Shown piece by piece: positions 8,585-20,389 of a stretch of 21,810 bases of DNA. The stretch lies in IMG/VR virus record IMGVR_UViG_3300009603_001160, positions 1-21,810 of that record; one strand, 5' to 3'. How positions within the stretch are numbered: position 1 is the first letter of the stretch; each line of letters opens with the position of its first letter. Both the position numbers and the translations under genes were made by a program. This DNA comes from a virus. The notes below the pieces were generated by a model that saw only the letters and a list, made by a program, of their open reading frames with translations, ran no database searches and had not been told where the DNA came from.

Positions 8585-9463
8585 ATGGCACAGACAGCAA
8601 CAACTGGTAATCTGGAGAATGCCCAAAGGATCATTATCGCAGCGGCGAGGTATACAGAGGAGCATAATGCTCCAGCACTGGCACTTATTGAGCAATTCCA
8701 ATTGCCCAAAGGTTCCAAGCAAGTTACTGTCCCTAAGGTAGGGCAAATGACTATGTCCGACCTAGTAGACGGGCAGGACATTGTAGATGAAGAAGAAATT
8801 GGAATGACAACAGTCGATCTTACGGCAAGTGAGATCGGAGCCAAGGTTATTCTGACAGACAAACTTGTTAGGCAGAGTGCCGACAACGTATTCTCCATGA
8901 TCGGACGACAGCTTGGTGACGGCATGGCTCGGAAGAAGGACACAGACGTTATCGCCCTATGGCCTAACCTTAATGGCGGTACCGTACTCGGTGCTGACGA
9001 TCGGGATATGGATACAGCGAATACTCATGCTGTTATATCTAACGCCAAGGCGAACAAGTTCGGGAACCAACTGTATCTCATTCACCACCCTAACGCAGTC
9101 GCAACGCTCTCTAAGCAAGCGGCTACTACCGCTGATACGGCTGCGGCAGCAGGGCTTACCAGTGGATGGAGCGTAGACCTACTAAAGAATTTCTACAGCA
9201 ACCTACGTCCTATAAACAACGTTCCTATATTCGAAGACGGGAACATTGAAAAGATCGGCACCGATGACTCAGGGTACGGCGTTATAGCTGATAAGACAGC
9301 TATGGCAGCTTTGACAAGTGTCGCTACCAGAACAGAGCGACAGAGGGATGCCTCTCTCCGAGCCACCGAGGTCGTAATGACCTCAGACTATGGTGTGTTT
9401 GAGTTAGACGACACCCGTGGAGCAGCGATACAGTTTGAAATCGGCGACCTTGCGACTTCATAA
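8585..9463 (+). CDS. Major capsid (coat) protein
   Basis: 292 residues with a strong AGGAGG ribosome binding site. Features typical of HK97-fold coat proteins are an N-terminal helix (residues ~1-45), then an extended E-loop-like segment with a QVTVPKVGQM strand and the acidic DLVDGQDIVDEEE stretch. A P-domain helix follows (DKLVRQSADNVFSMIGRQLGDGMARKKD), then an A-domain with LYLIHHPNAVATL and NNVPIFEDGNI, and a C-terminal DYGVFELDD strand. The overall pattern resembles coat proteins of marine and environmental podo-/siphoviruses. The short length suggests no large insertion domain. It would form the icosahedral shell with the preceding scaffold-like protein. No cleavage site is evident. The call is confident from fold-like pattern plus gene order, not from an alignment. 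Confidence 0.82.
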   Translation: MAQTATTGNLENAQRIIIAAARYTEEHNAPALALIEQFQLPKGSKQVTVPKVGQMTMSDLVDGQDIVDEEEIGMTTVDLTASEIGAKVILTDKLVRQSADNVFSMIGRQLGDGMARKKDTDVIALWPNLNGGTVLGADDRDMDTANTHAVISNAKANKFGNQLYLIHHPNAVATLSKQAATTADTAAAAGLTSGWSVDLLKNFYSNLRPINNVPIFEDGNIEKIGTDDSGYGVIADKTAMAALTSVATRTERQRDASLRATEVVMTSDYGVFELDDTRGAAIQFEIGDLATS

Positions 9464-10744: not shown

Positions 10745-12379
10745 ATGATCCACGGACTCCAACGGGAACTGTCCTCTCCCGTGGAGTATATTCAAGGGGT
10801 GCCAGTAGGTGTTGTGCCGAAGGCACCCCTCGCCACGAGCGTTCTTATAGCCATAATGGGGCCACGTCCTTGGCATTACGGGGACGGGCGCACTACATTA
10901 GACGATATTCAGGAGATGGCCCTTACTCACGGTAATGCCGTAACTGTCTTTATCCCTGGCATGTTCACCCCACAGGAGGAGGCGAGTACAGGAATTATCC
11001 GTGGGATACGACTCCGCGGCATGACAGCTATGCGTAACTGGGCTGTCGAGCAAGCACTAGATAAAGGTTATTCATACTTACTGCTTATAGAGAACGATGT
11101 GCAGTGTACCCCAGGTCTATTAAATGACCTCCTCATGGCCAATAAGCCCATAATCATTCCCAATCTGCACTTTCCCACCTTCCCTCTGGCTGATCTAATT
11201 AATTACGCACCAAGACCTTCCCCTGACCAGCATGGCCTGATAGAACTCATATGGGCCTGTCATTCCATTATACTGTTCCGTAGAGATGCGCTTGAAGATA
11301 TGTCTAAGGTCTTCATGGGGTTTACCACAGAAGGTGCCGATCACCTGCACTGGCAGTCACAGAAATATCCTGCATGGATGGACTTGGACACGATGGTAAA
11401 TATACTAGAGGTTCCGATGGGTGAGAAGAGCTTGATAACAGACGTACCATTCGAAACCCATACACGCAACGGTATCTCCTGCCCAGGGCCAATGTATGAA
11501 GTGAGGAGGTGTAAGGGAGTGGGCCTTTACCAATGCTCGGTATCGACATGTGATTTCGAGCTTTGTTTTTATGCTCCTGACAAGACCAATCACAAGGTAA
11601 GTGGCGTCATTCCACATGATATGCAGCTAGAGTCTAGTTATCGGCAAGAACACTGGGCTATGAGGTCAAAGCATTATCAGGATTTAGAATGGGTTAACCG
11701 TAAGGATTACCTAAACCGTATTATAGATAGCGTTTCTTATGAAACTGACGAGGTTGTACTGGATGCGGGTTGTGGCGCAGGTGCTATTGCACACGCTCTC
11801 GCCTTCAAAGTAGGAAAGGTTGTGGGGCTAGATATATCTCCTGCTATGATTAAGCTTGCGGAGGAGAAATCCGTTGCCAGTGAGGAGTTCTTTAATGGAG
11901 ACATACGGCGTATACCCTTTCCTCAAGGATTCTTTTCCAAAGTATTCTCACGTATGGTCTTTCACTCGCTCACAGGCCACGTTGATATACACAAAGCTGC
12001 GGGAGAGTGCTATCGTGTGCTACAAGAAGGTGGAACTTTCATTCTGTCTGAGGGTGTTCCCCCAGAATCCTCTACGTATACCTGGTACAAGGAGATGTTT
12101 AAACTAAAAGAAGATAGACTAACTCTTTCGCAGGAAATCATGGAGGAGCTGCTTAGGGGGGCTGGGTTCAAAGAAGTGGAGTCAATTATCCACGTTACCC
12201 CACAGTGCAGTATTCAGAATTGGCTGAACAATAGCGGGTTGCCAAAGAGTATACAGAACAAGATATACCAAATGCACCGCAACATGGATGAAAATATTCG
12301 TAGAGCATACAACGCCACGTTTACAAACGATGATGTCCTGTGTGATTTCAAATTTGTAATTGTTAAAGGGGTAAAATGA
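10745..12379 (+). CDS. Glycosyltransferase-like domain fused to SAM methyltransferase
   Basis: 544 residues. The N-terminal half (~30-245) resembles a GT-A fold transferase. Strand TSVLIAIMGP is followed by a helix with GMTAMRNWAVEQALDKGY and by LLLIENDVQ (residues 112-120), where E116/D118 sit at the usual metal-binding DxD-like site. Four cysteines (256, 264, 269, 274) form a possible zinc knuckle linker. Residues ~310-544 are a class I methyltransferase: motif I VVLDAGCGAGA (337-347), acidic D363 in VVGLDIS, NGD motif II (384-386) and a typical post-motif EGGTFILSEG. It probably transfers a sugar and methylates an acceptor, possibly capping a glycan. Only weak AGAAAG precedes the start, 12 nt after the decoration gene, so coupling to upstream translation is likely. 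It overlaps the next gene by ATGA. The methyltransferase call is firm; the transferase half is less so. Confidence 0.72.
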   Translation: MIHGLQRELSSPVEYIQGVPVGVVPKAPLATSVLIAIMGPRPWHYGDGRTTLDDIQEMALTHGNAVTVFIPGMFTPQEEASTGIIRGIRLRGMTAMRNWAVEQALDKGYSYLLLIENDVQCTPGLLNDLLMANKPIIIPNLHFPTFPLADLINYAPRPSPDQHGLIELIWACHSIILFRRDALEDMSKVFMGFTTEGADHLHWQSQKYPAWMDLDTMVNILEVPMGEKSLITDVPFETHTRNGISCPGPMYEVRRCKGVGLYQCSVSTCDFELCFYAPDKTNHKVSGVIPHDMQLESSYRQEHWAMRSKHYQDLEWVNRKDYLNRIIDSVSYETDEVVLDAGCGAGAIAHALAFKVGKVVGLDISPAMIKLAEEKSVASEEFFNGDIRRIPFPQGFFSKVFSRMVFHSLTGHVDIHKAAGECYRVLQEGGTFILSEGVPPESSTYTWYKEMFKLKEDRLTLSQEIMEELLRGAGFKEVESIIHVTPQCSIQNWLNNSGLPKSIQNKIYQMHRNMDENIRRAYNATFTNDDVLCDFKFVIVKGVK

Positions 12380-13719
12380 CATTAGCAAAGGACATACGTG
12401 ATCGGCATTATGGAAGCACAATTGTTCACGCTCACGGGTGTTTTGACCTACTTCATCCAGGGCATATCACCTTATTAAAAGAAGCCAAAGAAGCTGGGGA
12501 CATACTGGTAGTATCGGTTACGGACGACAAGCACGTTAACAAGGGTTCTAATAGGCCGCTGATGACCCTGAAAGAGCGTATGAACGTATTAACTGCCTTG
12601 AGAGTCGTGGATTACGTCATACCTAGCTATGCGGAGGATTGTGAGGCGATCCTGGCCGATCTCAAACCCGACGTGTACGTCAAGGGAGACGACTACGACA
12701 TGTACTCGTTACTGCCTGGGGAACAGAAGTTTATGCGTAACGGAACGCAGTTCCTTCAGGTTCCCAGAACCCGTGACTCAACAACAGGTATTCTCGGACG
12801 GTTGAAAAGCACTAGAACTCCAGTTGTACAGGAGTGGATGGATGCCTTTAAGAAGCAACACAGTCTTGCGGAGATAGAGGACAAGTTGTCAGAGCTATCT
12901 GAAACGCAGATATTGGTCATTGGAGAGCAGATAAAGGACGTTTACACCTATGTGGAACCCCTGGCCAAATCTCCTAGGGAATACTTTATGTCCTCTCGTG
13001 CTATCCATACTGAGACTCATCAGGGTGGGGCCAAGGCTGTTATAAGGCACCTAAAGCCTTGGGTGTCCCAAGAATCAATGCTGGTAACAAACAAAATTGA
13101 GATTATGAAGCAGCGGTTTATACACATTGGAAGCGGCACTAAGCTCTTTGGGGTACAGGCGTTGCCTCAACAGATACTTACGGATGAAGAGCGGGTGAGG
13201 CTAATCTCTCATTTAGATGATCTGGCTACTGAGAGTGGGTGCGTCCTGGCCATGGATTACGGCCACGGTTTCTTTGATGACAACATGCGCCAAGCATTAC
13301 TGTTCAGCGGGACGTTCCTAGCGGTGAACAGCCAAACCAACTCGGCTAACTACGGGTACAATCTAGCTACTAAATGGCCGAGAGCTGATTACGCTTGCCT
13401 AGATGGCCCTGAGTATACACTGGCACTGGCCAATGGATGGAAGTCTATCTCGGTTAATCAGCTTATGCTTACAAAGGGTGCTGCTGGGTGCTACATCGGG
13501 ATGGATATACCTTCCTTTGTTGAGGACTATGTTGACGGCGTGGGAGCAGGTGATGCCCTATTTGCATTCTCTGCACCCCTACTAGCGTTAAAGGCTGCTC
13601 CAGAAGTGGCTGGATTCGTCGGTTCTTGTGCTGCGGCGATACAATGCAATATCATGGGCAACAGTAAGCCCATTAGCCCAGAGTCGTTGTGGTCGTTTAT
13701 TGAGGAACTAATGGCATGA
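12376..13719 (+). CDS. Cytidylyltransferase-PfkB sugar kinase fusion (HldE-like, domains reversed)
   Basis: 447 residues. The N-terminal domain (~14-145) is a nucleotidyltransferase of the glycerol-phosphate cytidylyltransferase/RfaE C-terminal type, with HGCFDLLHPGH (HPGH at 27-30), LKERMNVLTAL, KGDDYD and STTGI (135-139). The C-terminal domain (~175-447) is a PfkB/ribokinase-type kinase with a GG substrate motif (217-218), DYGHGFF, VNSQTNSANYG, and the anion-hole/catalytic DGVGAGDA with D393. It would phosphorylate a sugar or polyol with ATP, then make a nucleotide-activated form. E. coli HldE carries kinase first and transferase second; here the order is reversed, and the substrate need not be heptose. 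It overlaps both neighbours by ATGA. Substrate and nucleotide (CTP vs ATP) cannot be decided from sequence. Confidence 0.85.
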   Translation: MTLAKDIRDRHYGSTIVHAHGCFDLLHPGHITLLKEAKEAGDILVVSVTDDKHVNKGSNRPLMTLKERMNVLTALRVVDYVIPSYAEDCEAILADLKPDVYVKGDDYDMYSLLPGEQKFMRNGTQFLQVPRTRDSTTGILGRLKSTRTPVVQEWMDAFKKQHSLAEIEDKLSELSETQILVIGEQIKDVYTYVEPLAKSPREYFMSSRAIHTETHQGGAKAVIRHLKPWVSQESMLVTNKIEIMKQRFIHIGSGTKLFGVQALPQQILTDEERVRLISHLDDLATESGCVLAMDYGHGFFDDNMRQALLFSGTFLAVNSQTNSANYGYNLATKWPRADYACLDGPEYTLALANGWKSISVNQLMLTKGAAGCYIGMDIPSFVEDYVDGVGAGDALFAFSAPLLALKAAPEVAGFVGSCAAAIQCNIMGNSKPISPESLWSFIEELMA

Positions 13720-14630
13720 CATTAGACTTGGCAAGAGCATACGACCTTATGAGCTTCATCCGCTATACGGAGGAGAAGATAGCGGAAAAGTACGGGGGGT
13801 GGGATGACACGGTTCCTCACCCCATGAGAACACCAGTCCATTTGAGTATAGGCCAGGAGGCAGCTTCGGTAGGTGTTATTATGGCCTTACCTCAGGATGC
13901 CCACGTATTTGCTAGCCATCGCAACCATGCGGCTTATCTAGCCAAGGGTGGTGACTTAGATGCCATGATAGCAGAGCTATACGGTAAGGCAACGGGCTGT
14001 ACTGGTGGGCGTGGTGGCTCCATGCACTTGTGGGACAAGAATGTTAACGTGATGGGCCATCCTATTGTTGGCGATTCTATAAGTCTAGCTGTAGGGTCGG
14101 CCCTAGCAGCCAAGATGGAAGGTACCGACAGGGTAACGGCGGTGTTCTTCGGGGATGGTGCTGCTGAAAGTGGGCAGTTCTGGGAGGCTCTGAACTTCGC
14201 CGCTGTTCAGAAATTACCTATCCTCTTTGTATGTGAGAACAATGAATACGCCACTCACACACATATACGGCAGCGACAGCCTGATACTTATATCCGCAAA
14301 AGGGTAGCTCCGTGGTTGCCAATGGTTTGTTCGGCAGACGGGAACGAGGTAGGCAAAGTCTACGATGGTACCAAATCTCTGCTTAAAAGCCTACCCGCCT
14401 TTTTAGAAGTCCATACCTATAGGTACAAGGAACACGTTGGGCCAAATGATGATAGCGATTTAGGGTACAGATCGTTGGAGGAGGTCGAGTTTCATAAAAG
14501 CCTAGACCCTATCAGTCAAAAAGGGTTTTTCTACTTCACTAGTGACGTCTATGAGGGGTCTATGAAGTACAAGGTTGACAAGGCTTTTGTCAATGCTGAG
14601 ATGGCACCCTGGCCAGAGGTAGCGGTATGA
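13716..14630 (+). CDS. Thiamine-diphosphate 2-oxo acid dehydrogenase E1-type, alpha subunit
   Basis: 304 residues, near the usual E1-alpha size with a shortened N-terminus. Diagnostic motifs are RTPVHLSIGQEA (38-49), the SHRNHAAYLAKGGD loop (67-80), GKATGCTGGRGGSMHL (90-105) and the thiamine-diphosphate/Mg motif from GDGA (146-149) to NN (175-176). The 31-residue GDG-to-NN spacing is canonical. The C-terminal TYRYKEHVGP motif is also present. Known E1 enzymes decarboxylate a 2-oxo acid and pass the acyl to lipoyl-E2 (PDH, acetoin-type enzymes) or, alone, can carboligate. No E2 or E3 gene is visible, so a conventional complex would have to borrow host parts. It forms an alpha2-beta2 enzyme with the next gene, overlapping it by ATGA. 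Active-site residues look intact; the true acceptor is unknown. Confidence 0.9.
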   Translation: MTLDLARAYDLMSFIRYTEEKIAEKYGGWDDTVPHPMRTPVHLSIGQEAASVGVIMALPQDAHVFASHRNHAAYLAKGGDLDAMIAELYGKATGCTGGRGGSMHLWDKNVNVMGHPIVGDSISLAVGSALAAKMEGTDRVTAVFFGDGAAESGQFWEALNFAAVQKLPILFVCENNEYATHTHIRQRQPDTYIRKRVAPWLPMVCSADGNEVGKVYDGTKSLLKSLPAFLEVHTYRYKEHVGPNDDSDLGYRSLEEVEFHKSLDPISQKGFFYFTSDVYEGSMKYKVDKAFVNAEMAPWPEVAV

Positions 14631-15508
14631 AATACAAAGAAGCTATCTCTCAGTCCATAGTACAGGCAATGGAAAACGACCCGAAGGTTGTGCTTCTAGG
14701 CCAGATGGTTACAGACCCGAAGGGTGTATTCGGCACTACTCTTGAGGCTCACAAACGATTTCCAGATAGGGTTATAGAAACGCCTGTGTCGGAGACTATG
14801 ATTACTGGAGCTTGCGTTGGGCTGTCTATGGAAGGATGGAAGCCAATATTAGTACATGCCCGTGCCGATTTCTCACTGCTATCTTTTGAGCACTTAATAA
14901 ATACAGCCTCAAAAATGAAATTTTTACATAAAAAGCCCCTCCCTTTTGTGATGCGTGTGCTTGTAGGTCGTGGTTGGGGCCAAGGGCCAGTCCATTCACA
15001 GAGCTTTCATAATATGCTGTCGCAAGTACCTGGATTAACGGTACGAATACCCTTCGGTAATGCGAATTACGGGGATATTCTAGTCGAAGGATTGGCTAAC
15101 GGCCCGCTTGTTGTGGTTGAGCCAAGAAGACTTTACGAGGAATCCCTCCTCTGGCCAGAGAGCTTTCCCAATGAGGATATCTCAATATACTGCATTGGAG
15201 ACACGGCAATAGACGCTCTGGAAGCTCGACTTCAGCTATTCAAATACGGGGTTAAGGTTAACGTCATACCTAAAGACTCGGTTCCAATTATCCCGCACTC
15301 AACTCCTTATGTAATTCTTGATATGGCCCCTAACTTGAATGCAATATCACCGCCTTTTGTACCCCAAGGCTGTTCTCAAGCCTATGAGAAAGCGTGGTAT
15401 CCCACCGCTAATGACATCGTGAAGGCGGTACTGGATAAGTTAGGTGTGAAGATCCCTAAATTAAAGGAGACTAATGAGCAGTTCGCTCCTGTCGGCAGTT
15501 CTTTCTAG
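14627..15508 (+). CDS. Thiamine-diphosphate 2-oxo acid dehydrogenase E1-type, beta subunit
   Basis: 293 residues, about 30 shorter than usual PDH E1-beta (~325). It starts MKYKEAISQS, typical for the family. ETPVSE (51-56) carries the glutamate (E56) expected to activate the thiamine ring, and GPVHSQSFHN (120-129) carries the conserved H123. GACVGLSMEGW also matches. The shortening lies in the C-terminal, transketolase-C-like domain, which in PDH contacts E2. That fits an E1 that works without its E2, but this is inference. It partners the alpha gene before it. Its end overlaps the following small gene by 35 nt, whose ribosome binding site lies inside this coding sequence. Confidence 0.88.
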   Translation: MKYKEAISQSIVQAMENDPKVVLLGQMVTDPKGVFGTTLEAHKRFPDRVIETPVSETMITGACVGLSMEGWKPILVHARADFSLLSFEHLINTASKMKFLHKKPLPFVMRVLVGRGWGQGPVHSQSFHNMLSQVPGLTVRIPFGNANYGDILVEGLANGPLVVVEPRRLYEESLLWPESFPNEDISIYCIGDTAIDALEARLQLFKYGVKVNVIPKDSVPIIPHSTPYVILDMAPNLNAISPPFVPQGCSQAYEKAWYPTANDIVKAVLDKLGVKIPKLKETNEQFAPVGSSF

Positions 15509-15722
15509 GTTGCCCTCAAGCGTAAATCTTGTGAGCTTGTTCGGTCATCGACTGGTGATCAGAATGAACGAGAGCATGAAAACGGCAACACGGGGTCATA
15601 TGCTGTTGGAGCTGGAGAAGCAATTGCGCCGTGAAGTACACAGTCAAATGGAAGTCTTCTTGGAGCCACGAGGGGACATTAACAAATTAAGGATTAAGAC
15701 CAGGGGAGTGGTAATTATATGA
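15474..15722 (+). CDS. Unrecognised 82-aa protein coupled between E1-beta and radical SAM genes
   Basis: ATG 15474 has AAAGGAGA just upstream, inside the E1-beta gene. The gene ends TGA in an ATGA overlap with the radical SAM gene. A later in-frame ATG (15564, residue 31) lacks a good ribosome binding site, so I keep the longer form. The first 30 residues are Ser/Leu/Val-rich. Residues ~31-82 form a basic-acidic segment (ATRGHMLLELEKQLRRE, MEVFLEPRGD, LRIKTRGVV) that looks like a compact folded domain. Function is unknown. Its exact placement in the overlapping operon argues that it is a real part of the pathway, perhaps an accessory or carrier-binding protein. It is too small to be an enzyme I can name. 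Confidence 0.65.
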   Translation: MSSSLLSAVLSRLPSSVNLVSLFGHRLVIRMNESMKTATRGHMLLELEKQLRREVHSQMEVFLEPRGDINKLRIKTRGVVII

Positions 15723-16885
15723 CCGTTGGGTTGGAACAACTTCATAGGCAACCAGACTCAGTGATGTCAGTTGCCCAGGATGTGGCCTCTTTATCCAGAA
15801 TGGACGGTCATAAACTACCTTGGCATATGGACAGGGTTGAGGCTTGGGAGCGTGGGGAGAGAATAGCACCTGTGCTGATCGACATAGCCCTTACAAGAAA
15901 GTGCGATTACGCTTGTAAATGGTGCTACGCCATGCTTCAAGAGAATGACCGCAGTGTAATTACGAAGGAGGTTATTGAAGACTTCCTTGTGGATTGCGCC
16001 AGGATGGGCGTGAGGGCTATTAGCTTGCTCTCAGACGGCGAGAGTGTGCTGTCACCAGTGTTTACCTACACGGTCAATCGAGGTAAGGAGCTGGGAATGG
16101 CAATGGCGTCTGGAAGCAACTGCCGTATGTTCACGCCTGACAAGCAGGAGGAGTGCCTAAAGAACCTTAGCTACATTCGAATCAACTTTCCTGCGGGTAC
16201 TAGAGATAGGTACTGCGAGATTGTGGGCGCAAAGCCTAAAGCCTATGACCAGGTGCTGCGTAATATCAGGTACATGGTTGCCCTTAAAAAACGAGATAAC
16301 CTAGATATAAGTATAGGCTGGCAGATGGTCATGATGCCTGAAGATGCCGACCAGATAATCCCCTTCGTTGAACTAGGTAGGGAGCTTGGGGTAGACTTTG
16401 CCATTATTAAGCATACTGCTGACGACGAGTATGGCAGTTTGGGGGTAGAGTATGCAGCGTATGAGGACGTTGTACCCATTCTCAAAAGGGCTGAAACCTA
16501 CGCTACAGACACTTTTCATGTAAAAGCCATGTGGTCAAAGATTACATCTGGGGGCAAACGTAGCTATAAACGATGCTATGGGCCTCCATTTATCCTACAA
16601 ATTAGCGGATCGGGACTTGTGGCTCCGTGCGGTGACAAATTCAATGATCGCTACGCTGCGTTACACATTGGAAACATCTGCGAGGAGCGGTGGTGGGACA
16701 TCTGGAAGAGCGATAGATACTGGGAAGTGATGAACTACCTAGGTTCTGAGGAGTTCAACCCCCAGACCCGTTGCGGCCCTCTATGCAGACAGCACAAGAT
16801 CAACGAGGCTTTGGACAAGCATATACGAGGCGTCGAAAGGCTTGAGCCAGCAATGACAGACCTCCCACGTAAGGAGTTCCTGTGA
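15719..16885 (+). CDS. Radical SAM enzyme with SPASM-type C-terminal domain
   Basis: 388 residues. The 4Fe-4S radical SAM motif CDYACKWC gives C62, C66 and C69 in C-x3-C-x2-C spacing. SLLSDGESVLSP (102-112) matches the GGE-type SAM-binding strand. The C-terminal part holds cysteines 286, 304, 321, 352 and 356, including GLVAPCG and TRCGPLC, the arrangement of a SPASM/twitch domain binding auxiliary iron-sulfur clusters. Such enzymes run peptide, sugar or aminoglycoside chemistry by 5'-deoxyadenosyl radical; in a carbohydrate operon a sugar or polyol dehydrogenase/epimerase role is the likelier guess, while RiPP maturation is not supported by any precursor here. ATGA start and GTGA end overlaps tie it to both neighbours. 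Class is sure, substrate unknown. Confidence 0.88.
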   Translation: MTVGLEQLHRQPDSVMSVAQDVASLSRMDGHKLPWHMDRVEAWERGERIAPVLIDIALTRKCDYACKWCYAMLQENDRSVITKEVIEDFLVDCARMGVRAISLLSDGESVLSPVFTYTVNRGKELGMAMASGSNCRMFTPDKQEECLKNLSYIRINFPAGTRDRYCEIVGAKPKAYDQVLRNIRYMVALKKRDNLDISIGWQMVMMPEDADQIIPFVELGRELGVDFAIIKHTADDEYGSLGVEYAAYEDVVPILKRAETYATDTFHVKAMWSKITSGGKRSYKRCYGPPFILQISGSGLVAPCGDKFNDRYAALHIGNICEERWWDIWKSDRYWEVMNYLGSEEFNPQTRCGPLCRQHKINEALDKHIRGVERLEPAMTDLPRKEFL

Positions 16886-17427
16886 GTAACCGAGGGGATT
16901 TTAGTAATGAGGAGAATGTCAAACAGGCTGATCGGGCATTGCTCTCTTTCAAGGAAGTAGCGGACAAGCTGGGCGTTGAATGGTGCCTGTTTGCTGGTAC
17001 GGCACTAGGATTCTTTCGTAACAAGGGTTATATTAACTGGGATAATGACATAGATATAGCTCTTACAGGTGGCGAGGCCGCCCTAGACAAGGTGTCTACT
17101 GAGCTTTACCAGATAGGTTTTAACATTGGCCGTGACTGTACCAACAATGACGGAACCCGCAACCGACACTTATGGGGAGGTATGGAAACAGCCCACGATA
17201 CAGAGTCTGGTATACTTGTCGATGTGTTCTATACCTTTACAGATACAGAAAAACAGTTCTTGCATTCCTTTGAGGCCATTGACTACAAGGGCAGACTGTT
17301 TCTTATCCCAAGGCCAATCAAAAGATACTTGATAGAGACATACGGTAAAGGGTTTATGGTACCGCAGAAAGGAATTAAGGCAAAGTATGAGCCTGAACGG
17401 AAGATATCCTACGTCAACACTAGGTGA
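16882..17427 (+). CDS. LicD-like nucleotidyltransferase-fold transferase, short form
   Basis: 181 residues from GTG (GTGA overlap), with AAGGAG about 5 nt upstream. The signature GTALGFFRNKGYINWDNDID (39-58) matches LicD/fukutin-family transferases, with D56 and D58 the metal-binding DxD pair. LicD enzymes move phosphocholine or another phospho-polyol from a CDP donor to a glycan, which pairs well with the cytidylyltransferase upstream. It is shorter than typical LicD (~265 aa): after KGRLFLIPRPIKRYL it ends at KISYVNTR, and its last 41 nt are shared with the next gene. So it is either a small LicD type or 3'-shortened when the block joined the virion genes. A different sugar-phosphate transferase activity is possible. 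Confidence 0.8.
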   Translation: MSNRGDFSNEENVKQADRALLSFKEVADKLGVEWCLFAGTALGFFRNKGYINWDNDIDIALTGGEAALDKVSTELYQIGFNIGRDCTNNDGTRNRHLWGGMETAHDTESGILVDVFYTFTDTEKQFLHSFEAIDYKGRLFLIPRPIKRYLIETYGKGFMVPQKGIKAKYEPERKISYVNTR

Positions 17428-17779
17428 TCTATGGCTTCCAAACGGTGTTACCTATAGTCCACCCAAAGCTATAGGCCACAATAACGAGACAGGAGGAGCG
17501 ATAGTAGCGCACGTTTTCCATTTCCATGATAAAATGTCAGGTAGGCGTTCTAGATGTACAATACCCGCCGATGTCGGCGAGAGTCAGGCATACATAGAGG
17601 ACTTAGCTGGAACGGCCTTTGAGAACTGGCTTGTAGAAATACGAACAGATGGGAAAAAACGAGCACCAACTGCGGACGAGAGAAAGCAGATAGGAAAAGC
17701 TATACGAGATTTCCGTGCCTACGCAAACAAGCGTAGACAGAGTAGTAACTCCAGAATATACTACAAAGGCACCCAGTAA
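17387..17779 (+). CDS. Unrecognised 130-aa protein at the block's right border
   Basis: The frame overlaps the LicD-like gene by 41 nt. ATG 17387 is the only in-frame start near the 5' end, and its upstream TAAGG is weak. The protein has a beta-like N-terminus with Gly and Pro, a central HVFHFHDKMSGRRSRC stretch, and a basic helical C-terminus (ADERKQIGKAIRDFRAYANKRRQ). No family is recognised. The Shine-Dalgarno of the next gene overlaps its TAA stop. It is probably a small virion or DNA-binding protein that resumes the phage's own gene set after the metabolic block; that is inference. Confidence 0.55.
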   Translation: MSLNGRYPTSTLGDLWLPNGVTYSPPKAIGHNNETGGAIVAHVFHFHDKMSGRRSRCTIPADVGESQAYIEDLAGTAFENWLVEIRTDGKKRAPTADERKQIGKAIRDFRAYANKRRQSSNSRIYYKGTQ

Positions 17780-17789
17780 GGAGGATACA

Positions 17790-18482
17790 ATGGCAAGAAA
17801 ACCACAGGTGGCAGTGGAAATTGTAGATGAGGACGGTACTCAATACGGGACAGGGGGGCTATTAAAAGTACAAGGCCCAGTCGCACAGCATAGTACCGTC
17901 GCTGGAAATCCCCAAATGATGGGGTTCAGAGTCACTGATGCTGTTGGTGATGGCGGCGGTGGGTCGGCAGGTAAGATCAAGGATATACTGGGCGACAACG
18001 ATGGTGGAATCCTAACGATTCTTAAGCATTTTGCTGCTTCACGAGCGGCTGATGTTGTTTATTTAGCTGATGCAACTGCGTTAGGAACAGGTACAAATGC
18101 CGCACTGAAAGTTCTAGCGGCGCAGTTTGGTTATAACGGTGCCACGCTGGACATGATACGCACACCAACAACATTCAAGATGATTGACGCTGTATCTGTC
18201 ACTGCTGGATCTGGAGCTACCGTATGGACACCAGCTAGCGGTAAGAAGTTTAGATTGATGGGATGGTCTTTGTCTGTAGCTAGTGCCGCAGCCATAGAAT
18301 TCCATGACCATACTGTAGGAACAATTGTTCTTCAGACCCCGTTGCTTGCGGCAGGGGGAATTCATAACAGCCGTGGGGAGCTTGGTAACGGATTTATTTC
18401 CGCTTCGGCTAACAATGTACTGAAGCTGGACGTAACTGCCAATGCCGCTGTCAGCGGTATGGTTTGGGGCGTAGAAGAATAG
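17790..18482 (+). CDS. Beta-rich virion protein, fibre- or decoration-like
   Basis: 230 residues from ATG 17790, preceded by AAGGAGG (17778-17784). An in-frame GTG at 17715 is upstream but lacks a good site and would overlap the previous gene, so I reject it. The N-terminus is charged; the middle holds a Gly run and an ADVVYLADATALGTGTN linker. Residues ~155-230 are a beta-sandwich-like module (GKKFRLMGWSLSVASAA, IEFHDHTVGTIVLQTP, VSGMVWGVEE) of the kind found at the ends of phage structural proteins. Its place after the sugar block makes it a candidate carrier of a glycan or a receptor-binding element. The function is inference. Confidence 0.6.
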   Translation: MARKPQVAVEIVDEDGTQYGTGGLLKVQGPVAQHSTVAGNPQMMGFRVTDAVGDGGGGSAGKIKDILGDNDGGILTILKHFAASRAADVVYLADATALGTGTNAALKVLAAQFGYNGATLDMIRTPTTFKMIDAVSVTAGSGATVWTPASGKKFRLMGWSLSVASAAAIEFHDHTVGTIVLQTPLLAAGGIHNSRGELGNGFISASANNVLKLDVTANAAVSGMVWGVEE

Positions 18483-18495
18483 AGGAGGGCTTATT

Positions 18496-18711
18496 ATGGC
18501 AACTACAATAACATCAACACTCCGTGTGGGAACTACAGACGATATAATTATAACAGGTACCGTTGACTGGGAGGCAGATGCCGTAGAGGCTAAAGGCTGG
18601 AACAGTGCTTTAACAGGTAAGAGTAACAGCCAGAAGCTAGCGTATTGCAAAGCAGTGTTGGAGGAAAAGAACCCCCAGGTAACAACCACAGACCTTAATA
18701 TTAGCGGTTAA
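18496..18711 (+). CDS. Small 71-aa unrecognised protein
   Basis: ATG with GAGGAGGG upstream. The first half is Thr/Ile-rich beta sequence (TTITSTLRVGTTDDIIITG), the second a helix (AVEAKGWNSAL, NSQKLAYCKAVLEE). No family is recognised. It lies between two well-expressed small virion-type genes, so it is likely a minor structural or assembly protein. The stop overlaps the next gene's ribosome binding site. Confidence 0.6.
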   Translation: MATTITSTLRVGTTDDIIITGTVDWEADAVEAKGWNSALTGKSNSQKLAYCKAVLEEKNPQVTTTDLNISG

Positions 18712-18717
18712 AGGAGG
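18711..18717 (+). promoter_or_regulatory. Strong ribosome binding site for the 29-aa peptide gene
   Basis: AAGGAGG, a near-perfect Shine-Dalgarno, 5 nt before ATG 18723. It decides that the following tiny frame is a gene. Confidence 0.75.
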
Positions 18718-18722
18718 AGACA

Positions 18723-18812
18723 ATGCCTAAAGTAAAAATTACCGTTCGTATGCCATACGCCAAGACCAAGGCGACTAAGAAGCAAAAGAAAAAGAGGAAG
18801 GGTTCCTACTAG
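18723..18812 (+). CDS. 29-aa lysine-rich peptide
   Basis: Only 29 codons, but with the strong AAGGAGG site 5 nt upstream. Twelve of 29 residues are Lys or Arg and none is acidic; the C-terminal third is nearly all basic (KKQKKKRK). The stop TAG is directly followed by the GTG start of the next gene, so it could be a leader peptide that couples translation, or a DNA-binding or packaged basic peptide. It is too short for family assignment. Real translation is likely on signals alone. Confidence 0.6.
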   Translation: MPKVKITVRMPYAKTKATKKQKKKRKGSY

Positions 18813-20078
18813 GTGGCTGTCTTACAGGCACGAACCCGTGAGCAAATAAGAGTTGCCATCGGGCGGCATCTAGGGGCGGTCTACGTTTCCACAATATCAG
18901 GTCGTGGCACAGGGGCCAACATGAAGGACTTCAACGACAAGACTTTGTATGGCGGGGACGACGACCACAATGGCAAATACATACGCCTGACCTCTGGCTC
19001 CAATGACGGCTTCGATACTAGGGTTTTTGATTATGTAGCTGGTACGTCCCAGGCAGTTAGCGTTACCACTCAACGTGTTATTGTTAGGCCAGATGCCACG
19101 GGACTTAATTTCACCGCAGCTCAGACTTATGAGATGTGGGATGAACCCTTTCCACCTACGGACATCGACGATCTCATCAATCAGGCTATTGTCGAGTCAA
19201 CTGGAAGAGTCTATGATCCCGAAGAAAGTCTAGCCCTCTTTGCTGACGGCTTTCAAACACGCTTCGACATGCCCTCCCAGTTCTCTATGCTTCAACAGGT
19301 AGAGTGGCGTTCATCAGTGCAGTTTAAATCAATAGACACCGCTGAGAGTGCATGGACGGCGGGAACTAACGTCACCGTTAGCGTTGATAGCAAGATAAAG
19401 AAGCAGGGTGCTGGCTCTAATAAGATTGTGCTAGCGGCTGGGGTATCGTCAGGGGCGGTAGTGGCTTACAAAAACATTACCTCTATAGACATCTCTGGTT
19501 ACACGCACGTTGAATTCTGGATACGATGTACCAAGGCGACAACCTCGGCTGCTGATCTAAAGCTACTCTTAGATGATACCGCTGCTGCTGTGTCACCCAA
19601 AGAAACGCTGAGTATACCAGCCCTTAGTGGGGATACATGGACATTTGTCCGATTAGCCCTTTCCAACCCTCGTGATGACACCGCTATTATAAGCGTTGGC
19701 CTTGAGGATGATGTCGATATCGGTGCCGAAACAGTGTGGATAGACGACATTCGAGCGGTGCATAACGACACAGGTGTCTGGAAGCGTATGCCACGTCATC
19801 TATGGCATATTGACAAGCAGAGCCTCGATCTGGTGTTCACAAATGCAGGTCGTTCTCTGGTTGGTTATGCCCCTTTGAAGCTAATCGGTGGAGATAAACC
19901 TGCACTGCTAACGGCAGACGGAACCTCTTCTGAGGTAAACGACTGGTATATAGAATCCAGGGCAACGGAACTAGCGTTCATTGCAGCAGAGATGTTCGAT
20001 AAAGCAGCGTACTGGCACCAGTTCGCAGAGGAGGCCAAGAGGAATCTCCCCGTACTAGTAGATGTAAGGACAGTTTAA
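18813..20078 (+). CDS. Candidate head-tail adaptor with inserted lectin-like module
   Basis: 421 residues from GTG 18813, right after the stop of the tiny gene; its AGGAAGG site lies within that gene. The ends look like one fold split by an insertion. Residues 1-170 begin with RTREQIRVAIGRHLG and include PPTDIDDLINQAIVESTGRVYD. Residues ~318-421 end in the helix WYIESRATELAFIAAEMFDKAAYWHQF, typical of adaptor/tail-tube-like head completion proteins. Residues ~173-316 are a beta-sandwich of carbohydrate-binding-module type (HVEFWIRC, WTFVRLALSN, ETVWIDDIRA). The protein would sit at the portal-tail junction and display the lectin-like module on the virion. TAATG overlap with the next gene. The adaptor role is a moderate guess; the insertion pattern is clearer. 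Confidence 0.58.
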   Translation: MAVLQARTREQIRVAIGRHLGAVYVSTISGRGTGANMKDFNDKTLYGGDDDHNGKYIRLTSGSNDGFDTRVFDYVAGTSQAVSVTTQRVIVRPDATGLNFTAAQTYEMWDEPFPPTDIDDLINQAIVESTGRVYDPEESLALFADGFQTRFDMPSQFSMLQQVEWRSSVQFKSIDTAESAWTAGTNVTVSVDSKIKKQGAGSNKIVLAAGVSSGAVVAYKNITSIDISGYTHVEFWIRCTKATTSAADLKLLLDDTAAAVSPKETLSIPALSGDTWTFVRLALSNPRDDTAIISVGLEDDVDIGAETVWIDDIRAVHNDTGVWKRMPRHLWHIDKQSLDLVFTNAGRSLVGYAPLKLIGGDKPALLTADGTSSEVNDWYIESRATELAFIAAEMFDKAAYWHQFAEEAKRNLPVLVDVRTV

Positions 20079-20389
20079 TGCGGTTCGATGCTGGAGAAAC
20101 GGCTGTTGCTAGCACTGGTACTGCTGTTGCGTTATCGGCCACTGGGGGTATAGACGCCAACGACAGAATTATCTGGGCGCAGTTCAAGGCTGACCCTGAC
20201 AACTCTAACGATGCCTATGTTGGTGTTTCGGATGTGTCGGTTACCCACGGGTTTGTCCTAGAAGCGTCTGACTCGATAGGGTTGGCTCTAAACCCTGGTA
20301 AATATGGGGGAACTATCCCAGCAGGTGATATCTATTTCGATGTAACGACAAACGGTGAGAAAGTCTCCTGGGCAATACTCTTTAAGTAA
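20078..20389 (+). CDS. Small beta-rich virion protein (103 aa)
   Basis: It starts at a one-base TAATG overlap with the gene before, so it is probably translated by coupling. The sequence alternates short strands and Gly/Asp turns (AVALSATGGIDANDRI, YVGVSDVSVTHGFVLE, YFDVTTNGEKVSWAIL), like a small beta-sandwich. It could be a tail or head-completion accessory, or a fibre tip domain. No known family is recognised. Confidence 0.58.
   Translation: MRFDAGETAVASTGTAVALSATGGIDANDRIIWAQFKADPDNSNDAYVGVSDVSVTHGFVLEASDSIGLALNPGKYGGTIPAGDIYFDVTTNGEKVSWAILFK

Follow-up and report, generated by a model that had tools for sequence, protein, structure and literature searches.

We present a 29-residue lysine-rich gene of an ocean phage, lying directly before a candidate head-tail adaptor gene, and propose, at roughly even odds (a probability of about 0.5), that it encodes a small peptide that binds DNA and takes part in packaging or in completing the head. 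The best explanation as a whole, to which we give the same weight, is that the ORF is translated as a phage gene and constitutes this phage's version of a tiny cationic peptide that is encoded once per genome beside the packaging and head-completion genes. This proposal draws together the signals around the gene, its position relative to comparable genes in related phages, the narrow range of net charge of their products, and the mutual exclusion of two unrelated families of such peptides.

The small gene and its surroundings in the window

The stretch of DNA analysed here, called the window throughout, is the 21,810-base record of an uncultured virus (Table 1). The original prediction had described a 29-aa gene with twelve basic and no acidic residues, a strong AAGGAGG at the right spacing and a stop touching the GTG of the next gene, and each of these can be read directly in the sequence. 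The basic residues are 10 lysines and two arginines, aspartate and glutamate are absent, and the net charge is +12. The AAGGAGG shares one base with the stop codon of the 71-aa ORF before it, and there is a gap of 0 nt between the TAG and the GTG of the 421-aa candidate adaptor. The best ribosome-binding sequence for the adaptor, AGGAAGGG, lies 10 nt before that GTG, in arginine-lysine-glycine codons of the small ORF.

Table 1. Positions of the features discussed; coordinates are those of the window except in the last three lines.
Feature	Coordinates	Strand	Remarks
Major head protein	8585..9463	+	PHROG match, E 5e-8; used to gather relatives
Gene cassette: Anp1-like plus methyltransferase, cytidylyltransferase-like, two E1 dehydrogenase/transketolase-like subunits, radical SAM/SPASM, LicD	10745-17427		non-structural; between head genes and adaptor
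Radical-SAM/SPASM enzyme gene	15719-16885		1.8 kb upstream of the 29-aa ORF, amid sugar- and lipid-like enzymes
Acidic 71-aa ORF	18496..18711	+	just upstream of the 29-aa ORF
Shine-Dalgarno AAGGAGG of the 29-aa ORF	18711..18717	+	5 nt 5' of the ATG
29-aa lysine-rich ORF, MPKVKITVRMPYAKTKATKKQKKKRKGSY	18723..18812	+	read from sequence; ATG at 18723, TAG at 18810-18812
Likely ribosome-binding sequence of the adaptor, AGGAAGGG	18795..18802	+	within the 29-aa coding sequence
Candidate head-tail adaptor, 421 aa	18813..20078	+	GTG start at 18813
103-aa gene downstream of the adaptor	20078..20389	+	conserved; matched in 35 of 82 loci, including the window's own
Tiny pelagiphage ORF, L083	28828-28905
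Tiny pelagiphage ORF, L084	30023-30106
Tiny pelagiphage ORF, L086	29606-29674

A gene of merely 29 codons, for which no profile match was found, might be a chance ORF. We gauged this against 300 dinucleotide shuffles of the whole window, counting ATG-initiated ORFs of 25-60 aa with at least 33% lysine plus arginine and neither aspartate nor glutamate. The window has one such ORF; any at all was found in 10 of the 300 shuffles, and one preceded by AGGAG or GGAGG in none of them (0/300). The ORF also fills a slot in which relatives have similar genes. A chance origin is thus very improbable and was rejected on the shuffles with a ribosome site; the ORF is very probably a real gene.

The GTG start of the downstream protein is credible because it aligns with the starts of 12 relatives (MAVLQARTRE as against MPVIQGRTRA). 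The position of this protein points to a head-tail adaptor. It has no PHROG match at E<=0.001 (weak ones appear only at E<=1) and no match in named phages, and a profile of its family (A2) matched none of the solved structures. Its predicted structure is of middling quality (mean pLDDT 63), and the sole part with clear matches is a predicted jelly-roll insert at about residues 165-320, which in the model resembles carbohydrate-binding modules (best Z 12.2, rmsd 3.2 over 139 residues). A Foldseek match of the model to a chain of the cyanophage A4 portal-tail complex (probability 0.47) is too weak to name the protein by structure, and no head-tail adaptor was found among the 50 structural matches listed in a second comparison.

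As to the remainder of the window, it begins inside a gene resembling, by eye, the gene that follows terL in the related stretch L165 (presumably the portal); neither that gene nor its L165 look-alike has a PHROG match. The DNA of the cassette was matched, among the relatives compared, only by L003 (its start) and L004 (to about 16.4 kb). Two records with 99.8-99.9% DNA identity to the window end at about 11.1 and 16.4 kb of it, and no closely related record was found over 16.4-21.8 kb. Between the cassette and the 71-aa ORF lies a 255-aa ORF (17715-18482). As the beginning of this frame runs over a 130-aa ORF at 17387-17779, its true start is probably an ATG further inside (MARKPQVAVEIV...). 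Among the 82 loci, the 255-aa ORF has no relative, and the 71-aa ORF has none other than the window's own copy.

Tiny basic genes before the adaptor in related phages

Relatives were gathered with the major head protein, which gave at least 597 confirmed relatives among at least 599 stretches, the best 80 being used, and with A2, an alignment of 13 adaptors, for which the best 80 of 288 confirmed loci were taken, few of them overlapping the earlier set. Loci with an adaptor start number 129, including the window, and comprise 85 that are distinct over the first 250 residues. Upstream of 50 of these 85 adaptors, on the same strand, we found an ORF for a tiny lysine-rich peptide (MPKVGKKKFPYT..., phrog_33179, with no function named in PHROGs v4), henceforth the K-type; this count takes in a longer variant (L093, L094) and a weak one (L111). 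The gap to the adaptor is 9-660 nt, with 32 cases at no more than 30 nt, seven at 142-171 nt and 11 at 421-660 nt, and a Shine-Dalgarno-like 4-mer is present at 49 of the 50 genes. The 44 distinct K-type peptides have 31-69 residues (median 36.5) and net charges of +11 to +16. They are without acidic residues in 39 cases, begin with MP.V in 43, carry [F/Y][P/A/S]Y in 43 and end in tyrosine in 41.

Three of the 85 distinct adaptors (L103; L115/L118; L140) are preceded, at 11-13 nt, by a peptide unrelated to the K-type (MPxGKGTYGxxVGRPPKKKK), henceforth the G-type. These slot peptides, which take the form MP[S/K]GKGTYG..VGRPPKKKK or a longer one, are likewise tiny, basic and without acidic residues; the net charge of seven G-type peptides is +10 to +15, and the three slot members scanned have no PHROG match at E<=1. 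In an adaptor tree of 78 of the 85 adaptors, seven cut-short ones being left out, the G-type loci L103 and L115 are sisters of the K-type locus L100, all with the small gene at 11 nt.

Neither type occupies the slot in L002 and in 30 other distinct adaptors. By our count, 22 of these 30 have an acidic ORF of 53-77 aa there instead. The 30 loci are AT-rich (36-46% GC), and the 26 of them present in the adaptor tree form one clade together with L140. In this clade the adaptor keeps its start though the slot lacks a K- or G-type gene, and the small gene is found where the terminase region is present. The window itself sits on a long branch and its position in the tree is unsure. Six named phages have a related head protein, at 26-30% identity; the five viewed (the HTVC111P group and DSL-LC06) have siphovirus-like tail genes as annotated and a different layout.

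The window's own peptide stands at the K-type position, 0 nt before the same adaptor family, and like the K-type it is tiny, rich in lysine, begins with MP.V and ends in tyrosine; this start and end arise together in 84 of 200,000 shuffles, though the features were picked after the sequence had been seen. It differs in that it carries MPY but lacks the [F/Y][P/A/S]Y motif followed by a G..AAK stretch, that is, the [F/Y]-P-Y-T...G...AAK core. Against the K-type profile (A1), which was built without it, it scores 13.3 bits; among 5000 shuffles of the peptide, 255 reach this score, and 705 of 5000 do so when MP and the final tyrosine are held fixed. It has no match to phrog_33179 at E<=1, whereas 14 of 15 A1 members do, and a profile scan of its record (G000) returned neither an A1 nor an A5 (G-type) match. 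With the G-type of this group (the same slot in 3/85) and of T7-like marine phages it shares tiny size, basicity and a place by packaging and head genes; unlike them it has neither MPxGxGTYG, nor the GTYG within it, nor GRP. A degenerate DNA pattern for its first 12 residues matched nothing in viral contigs. At the level of sequence, a relationship of the window's peptide to the K-type is unproven.

Terminase-side copies, mutual exclusion and occurrence in other phages

In the 17 stretches from AT-rich records that contain the terminase region, the small gene lies before terS in 14 and before terL in three, being the K-type or its variant in nine and the G-type in eight; TerS and TerL were named by PHROG in L165, and by similarity to L165 in the other stretches. 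In nine of the 17 its stop and the next start share one base; in two they abut, in four they are 1-7 nt apart and in two 274 nt apart. The join in L308, where the stop lies beside the GTG of terL, resembles that of the window. For two records the distance between this place and the adaptor was measured, and it is about 16 kb. One peptide of this region (MPTGKGSYGKKIGRPPKKNAKKTGKKMTRKKK; L304 3017-3115, minus strand), directly before terS, joins a G-type head to a tail like that of the K-type (AKKTGKKMTKKKK) and is possibly a hybrid of the two.

With the A1 and A5 profiles applied to whole records, both states are known for 80 records, the K state of 46 K-type records being taken from the locus search. 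The K-type alone is present in 54, the G-type alone in 13, both in none and neither in 13; as the records are related, the Fisher's test value for this exclusion, 3e-8, is descriptive only. A TerL match is found in just two of the 13 records counted as having neither type, G020 and G042, and these have weak A1 matches (E 0.0014 and E 0.0005, respectively). On reading, each proves to have a K variant that lacks both the FPYT core and [F/Y][P/A/S]Y, directly before terS in G020, where the stop abuts the ATG of terS, and directly before terL in G042. Therefore, no TerL-bearing record of the set is without a K- or G-type gene. In the remaining 11 records, among them that of the window, TerL was not matched, and these may be truncated; as the window's record is without the terminase region, a K- or G-type gene may lie there.

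The K-type amino-acid sequence is under purifying selection. Over 82 pairs with at least 75% protein identity the pooled pN/pS is 0.20, and pN is below pS in 81 of the 82, though these pairs are not independent. Because members recur among the pairs and synonymous sites have changed a great deal (mean pS 0.70), the ratio is to be read as constraint and not as a rate.

Outside this group, at least 120 stretches of viral contigs contain a DNA pattern for the start of the K-type, and 119 ORFs were read in them. In 84,980 species genomes, it was found in one contig of 4 kb, which has tail-fibre-like ORFs and looks phage-like by eye. Downstream, 92 distinct neighbours have at least 100 aa, of which 11 match the adaptor and three the TerL of this group; for the other 78, the matches listed, which cover 25 of 71 families, include nine to portal phrog_1216, two to portal phrog_156, up to three to a terminase family, six to glycosyltransferases, five to endonucleases, three to holins and two to endolysins. 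For the 98 upstream neighbours, two TerS-like ones being left out, the matches listed, which cover 25 of 75 families, include up to 10 to terminase large-subunit and up to four to small-subunit families, and six to endolysin or lysozyme families; these families overlap and their counts are not additive. A1 gave weak and inconsistent matches to Pfam and none to NCBIfam.

Genes of the G-type are encountered between the scaffold and capsid genes in the T7-like marine phages CRP-171, MedDCM-OCT-S28-C3 and SS120-1; in S45-C4 the gene is close to that for capsid assembly, and in HTVC115P it follows the portal gene. The alignments leading to them are weak (E 0.2-8), but the motif is plain by reading. 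In seven of the 11 marine-type named records with such a match, no feature is annotated beneath it. Twelve of the 23 records are Proteus, Salmonella and Enterococcus phages, matched at E 7-10; these were set aside as chance, the one inspected, in PM87, lying inside a larger gene. Our K-type consensus, the window's peptide and other K-type peptides gave nothing in named phages bar one match at E 7, and a longer K-type relative gave no match there; these negatives are weak ones because the low-complexity filter of BLAST masks part of such queries.

A DNA-handling role and its alternatives

We propose that the peptide would bind phage DNA via its lysines and act during filling or closure of the head, whether by condensing the DNA inside the capsid or by working at the portal or terminase end. 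It would probably be made in step with the product of the following gene, as its stop touches the next start both in the window and in many terminase-side relatives. The K-type and G-type appear to substitute for each other at similar net charge despite being unrelated, which argues for charge rather than a specific contact; the data fit a role in which net charge may matter more than sequence, and the simplest reading is that DNA is bound during packaging or in the filled head. The window's peptide would share this job with both types. We infer its DNA binding from its charge only, and its presence in the virion and step of action are equally conjectural. The GRP core of the G-type is reminiscent of the AT-hook, a DNA-binding element, and the A/K-rich stretch of the K-type of the tails of histone H1. 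What counts against the reading is that the window's peptide matches neither type and that, outside this phage group, the K-type also has glycosyltransferase, endonuclease, holin and endolysin genes for neighbours. Among the three roles that the original prediction had offered, that of a packaged DNA-condensing peptide is the best supported: the position, the narrow range of net charge and the K/G exclusion speak for it, with DNA binding and packaging as its conjectural part.

A different possibility, which we hold to be unlikely, is a structural connector or capsid peptide that binds protein rather than DNA, for instance as a short cationic strap linking the portal to the adaptor or lying beneath the capsid. 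The same neighbours (adaptor, portal, scaffold) would suit such a role, and the C-terminal tyrosine, present in 41/44 K-type peptides, could be a protein contact; against it stand the apparent interchangeability of two unrelated sequences of similar net charge and the likeness of the GRP core to the AT-hook. Unlikelier still is the second role in the original prediction, a translational leader whose product is unimportant and whose translation sets ribosome access to the start of the next gene. The stop and start codons abut and the best ribosome site of the adaptor is inside the small ORF, an arrangement that makes it easier for ribosomes that have just terminated to restart; in 11/17 terminase-side stretches, too, the stop is in contact with the following start or overlaps it. 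Nevertheless, the next gene varies, being the adaptor, terS or terL; the adaptor of the AT-rich clade manages without a K- or G-type gene upstream; and selection acts on the K-type amino-acid sequence. A leader for the adaptor is disfavoured for the group because the K-type is 142-660 nt away in 18/50 loci, and about 16 kb away, before terS or terL, in the two records of the AT-rich clade that were measured, and we reject such a role for the group as a whole. What stands of the idea is the recurrent contact of stop and start, which makes a coupling of the small gene to whichever gene comes next plausible, in the window too; what does not is a downstream gene conserved across relatives.

The strong charge, an almost virus-only distribution and the presence of the K-type near endolysin and nuclease genes in other phages could be accommodated by a host-directed effector, early or late, that binds host DNA, RNA or membrane. 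However, in this phage group the gene remains with the packaging and head genes even as its place differs, and we regard this reading as quite improbable. The last of the three earlier suggestions, a substrate for modification, found no comparative support. The radical-SAM/SPASM enzyme gene upstream and the C-terminal tyrosine would be in keeping with a modified-peptide precursor. Yet, a match to the enzyme is found in 1/38 records, that of the window, while the other 37 carry the K- or G-type, and the enzyme sits in a cassette of sugar- and lipid-like enzymes; we therefore reject this as hardly credible.

If the DNA-handling reading is extended, marine tailed phages would encode, once per genome and with their terminase, portal or adaptor genes, an interchangeable tiny cationic peptide for packaging or compaction inside the capsid, of which the K-type, the G-type and that of the window would be three forms; this broader proposal we offer only tentatively, and with rather more doubt than the reading for the window itself. 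The nearest known parallels come from other viruses. Protein J of phiX174 is very small and basic, and belongs to a single-stranded DNA virus that has neither terminase nor tail. This microvirus DNA-packaging protein binds and coats DNA, apparently guiding it within the capsid (PMC13386984). It serves as a working comparison only; the K-type profile A1 matches no solved chain at E<=10. Protamine-like proteins of large eukaryotic DNA viruses, which are alike by description in being small and basic, are said to condense viral DNA (PMC6163548). In open-licence papers, searched by titles and the starts of abstracts, we found neither a protamine- or J-like function described for tailed phages nor any description of, or experiment on, the K- and G-type peptides.

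Were the proposal true, a group of marine phages that is common, and for the most part uncultured, would have a dedicated tiny peptide to handle packaged DNA. Gene callers skip such genes, as in the seven unannotated records above, and trypsin-based virion proteomics would presumably tend to miss peptides so rich in lysine. The mutual exclusion of the K- and G-types makes the function testable by swaps in cultured phages.

In other phages (L174, L270 and others), K-type genes are often followed by further tiny basic genes (e.g. MSAKKKSSSKYHTTKDGRRAKKGLWYNINK...), as if several such peptides were clustered there. The pelagiphages HTVC111P, HTVC026P and HTVC202P have unannotated tiny ORFs, such as MPYHTGSGMKKKKKKKNKKSKMGKRKR, after a lysozyme or peptidase M15 gene. 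Finally, proteins of 127-155 aa in L183, L187, L226, L229, L253 and L286 begin with a K-type-like MPRVGKK.FSYD and have a tail like TMRGMGAATRGGKFSGTF, which suggests that the K-type start can form part of longer proteins.
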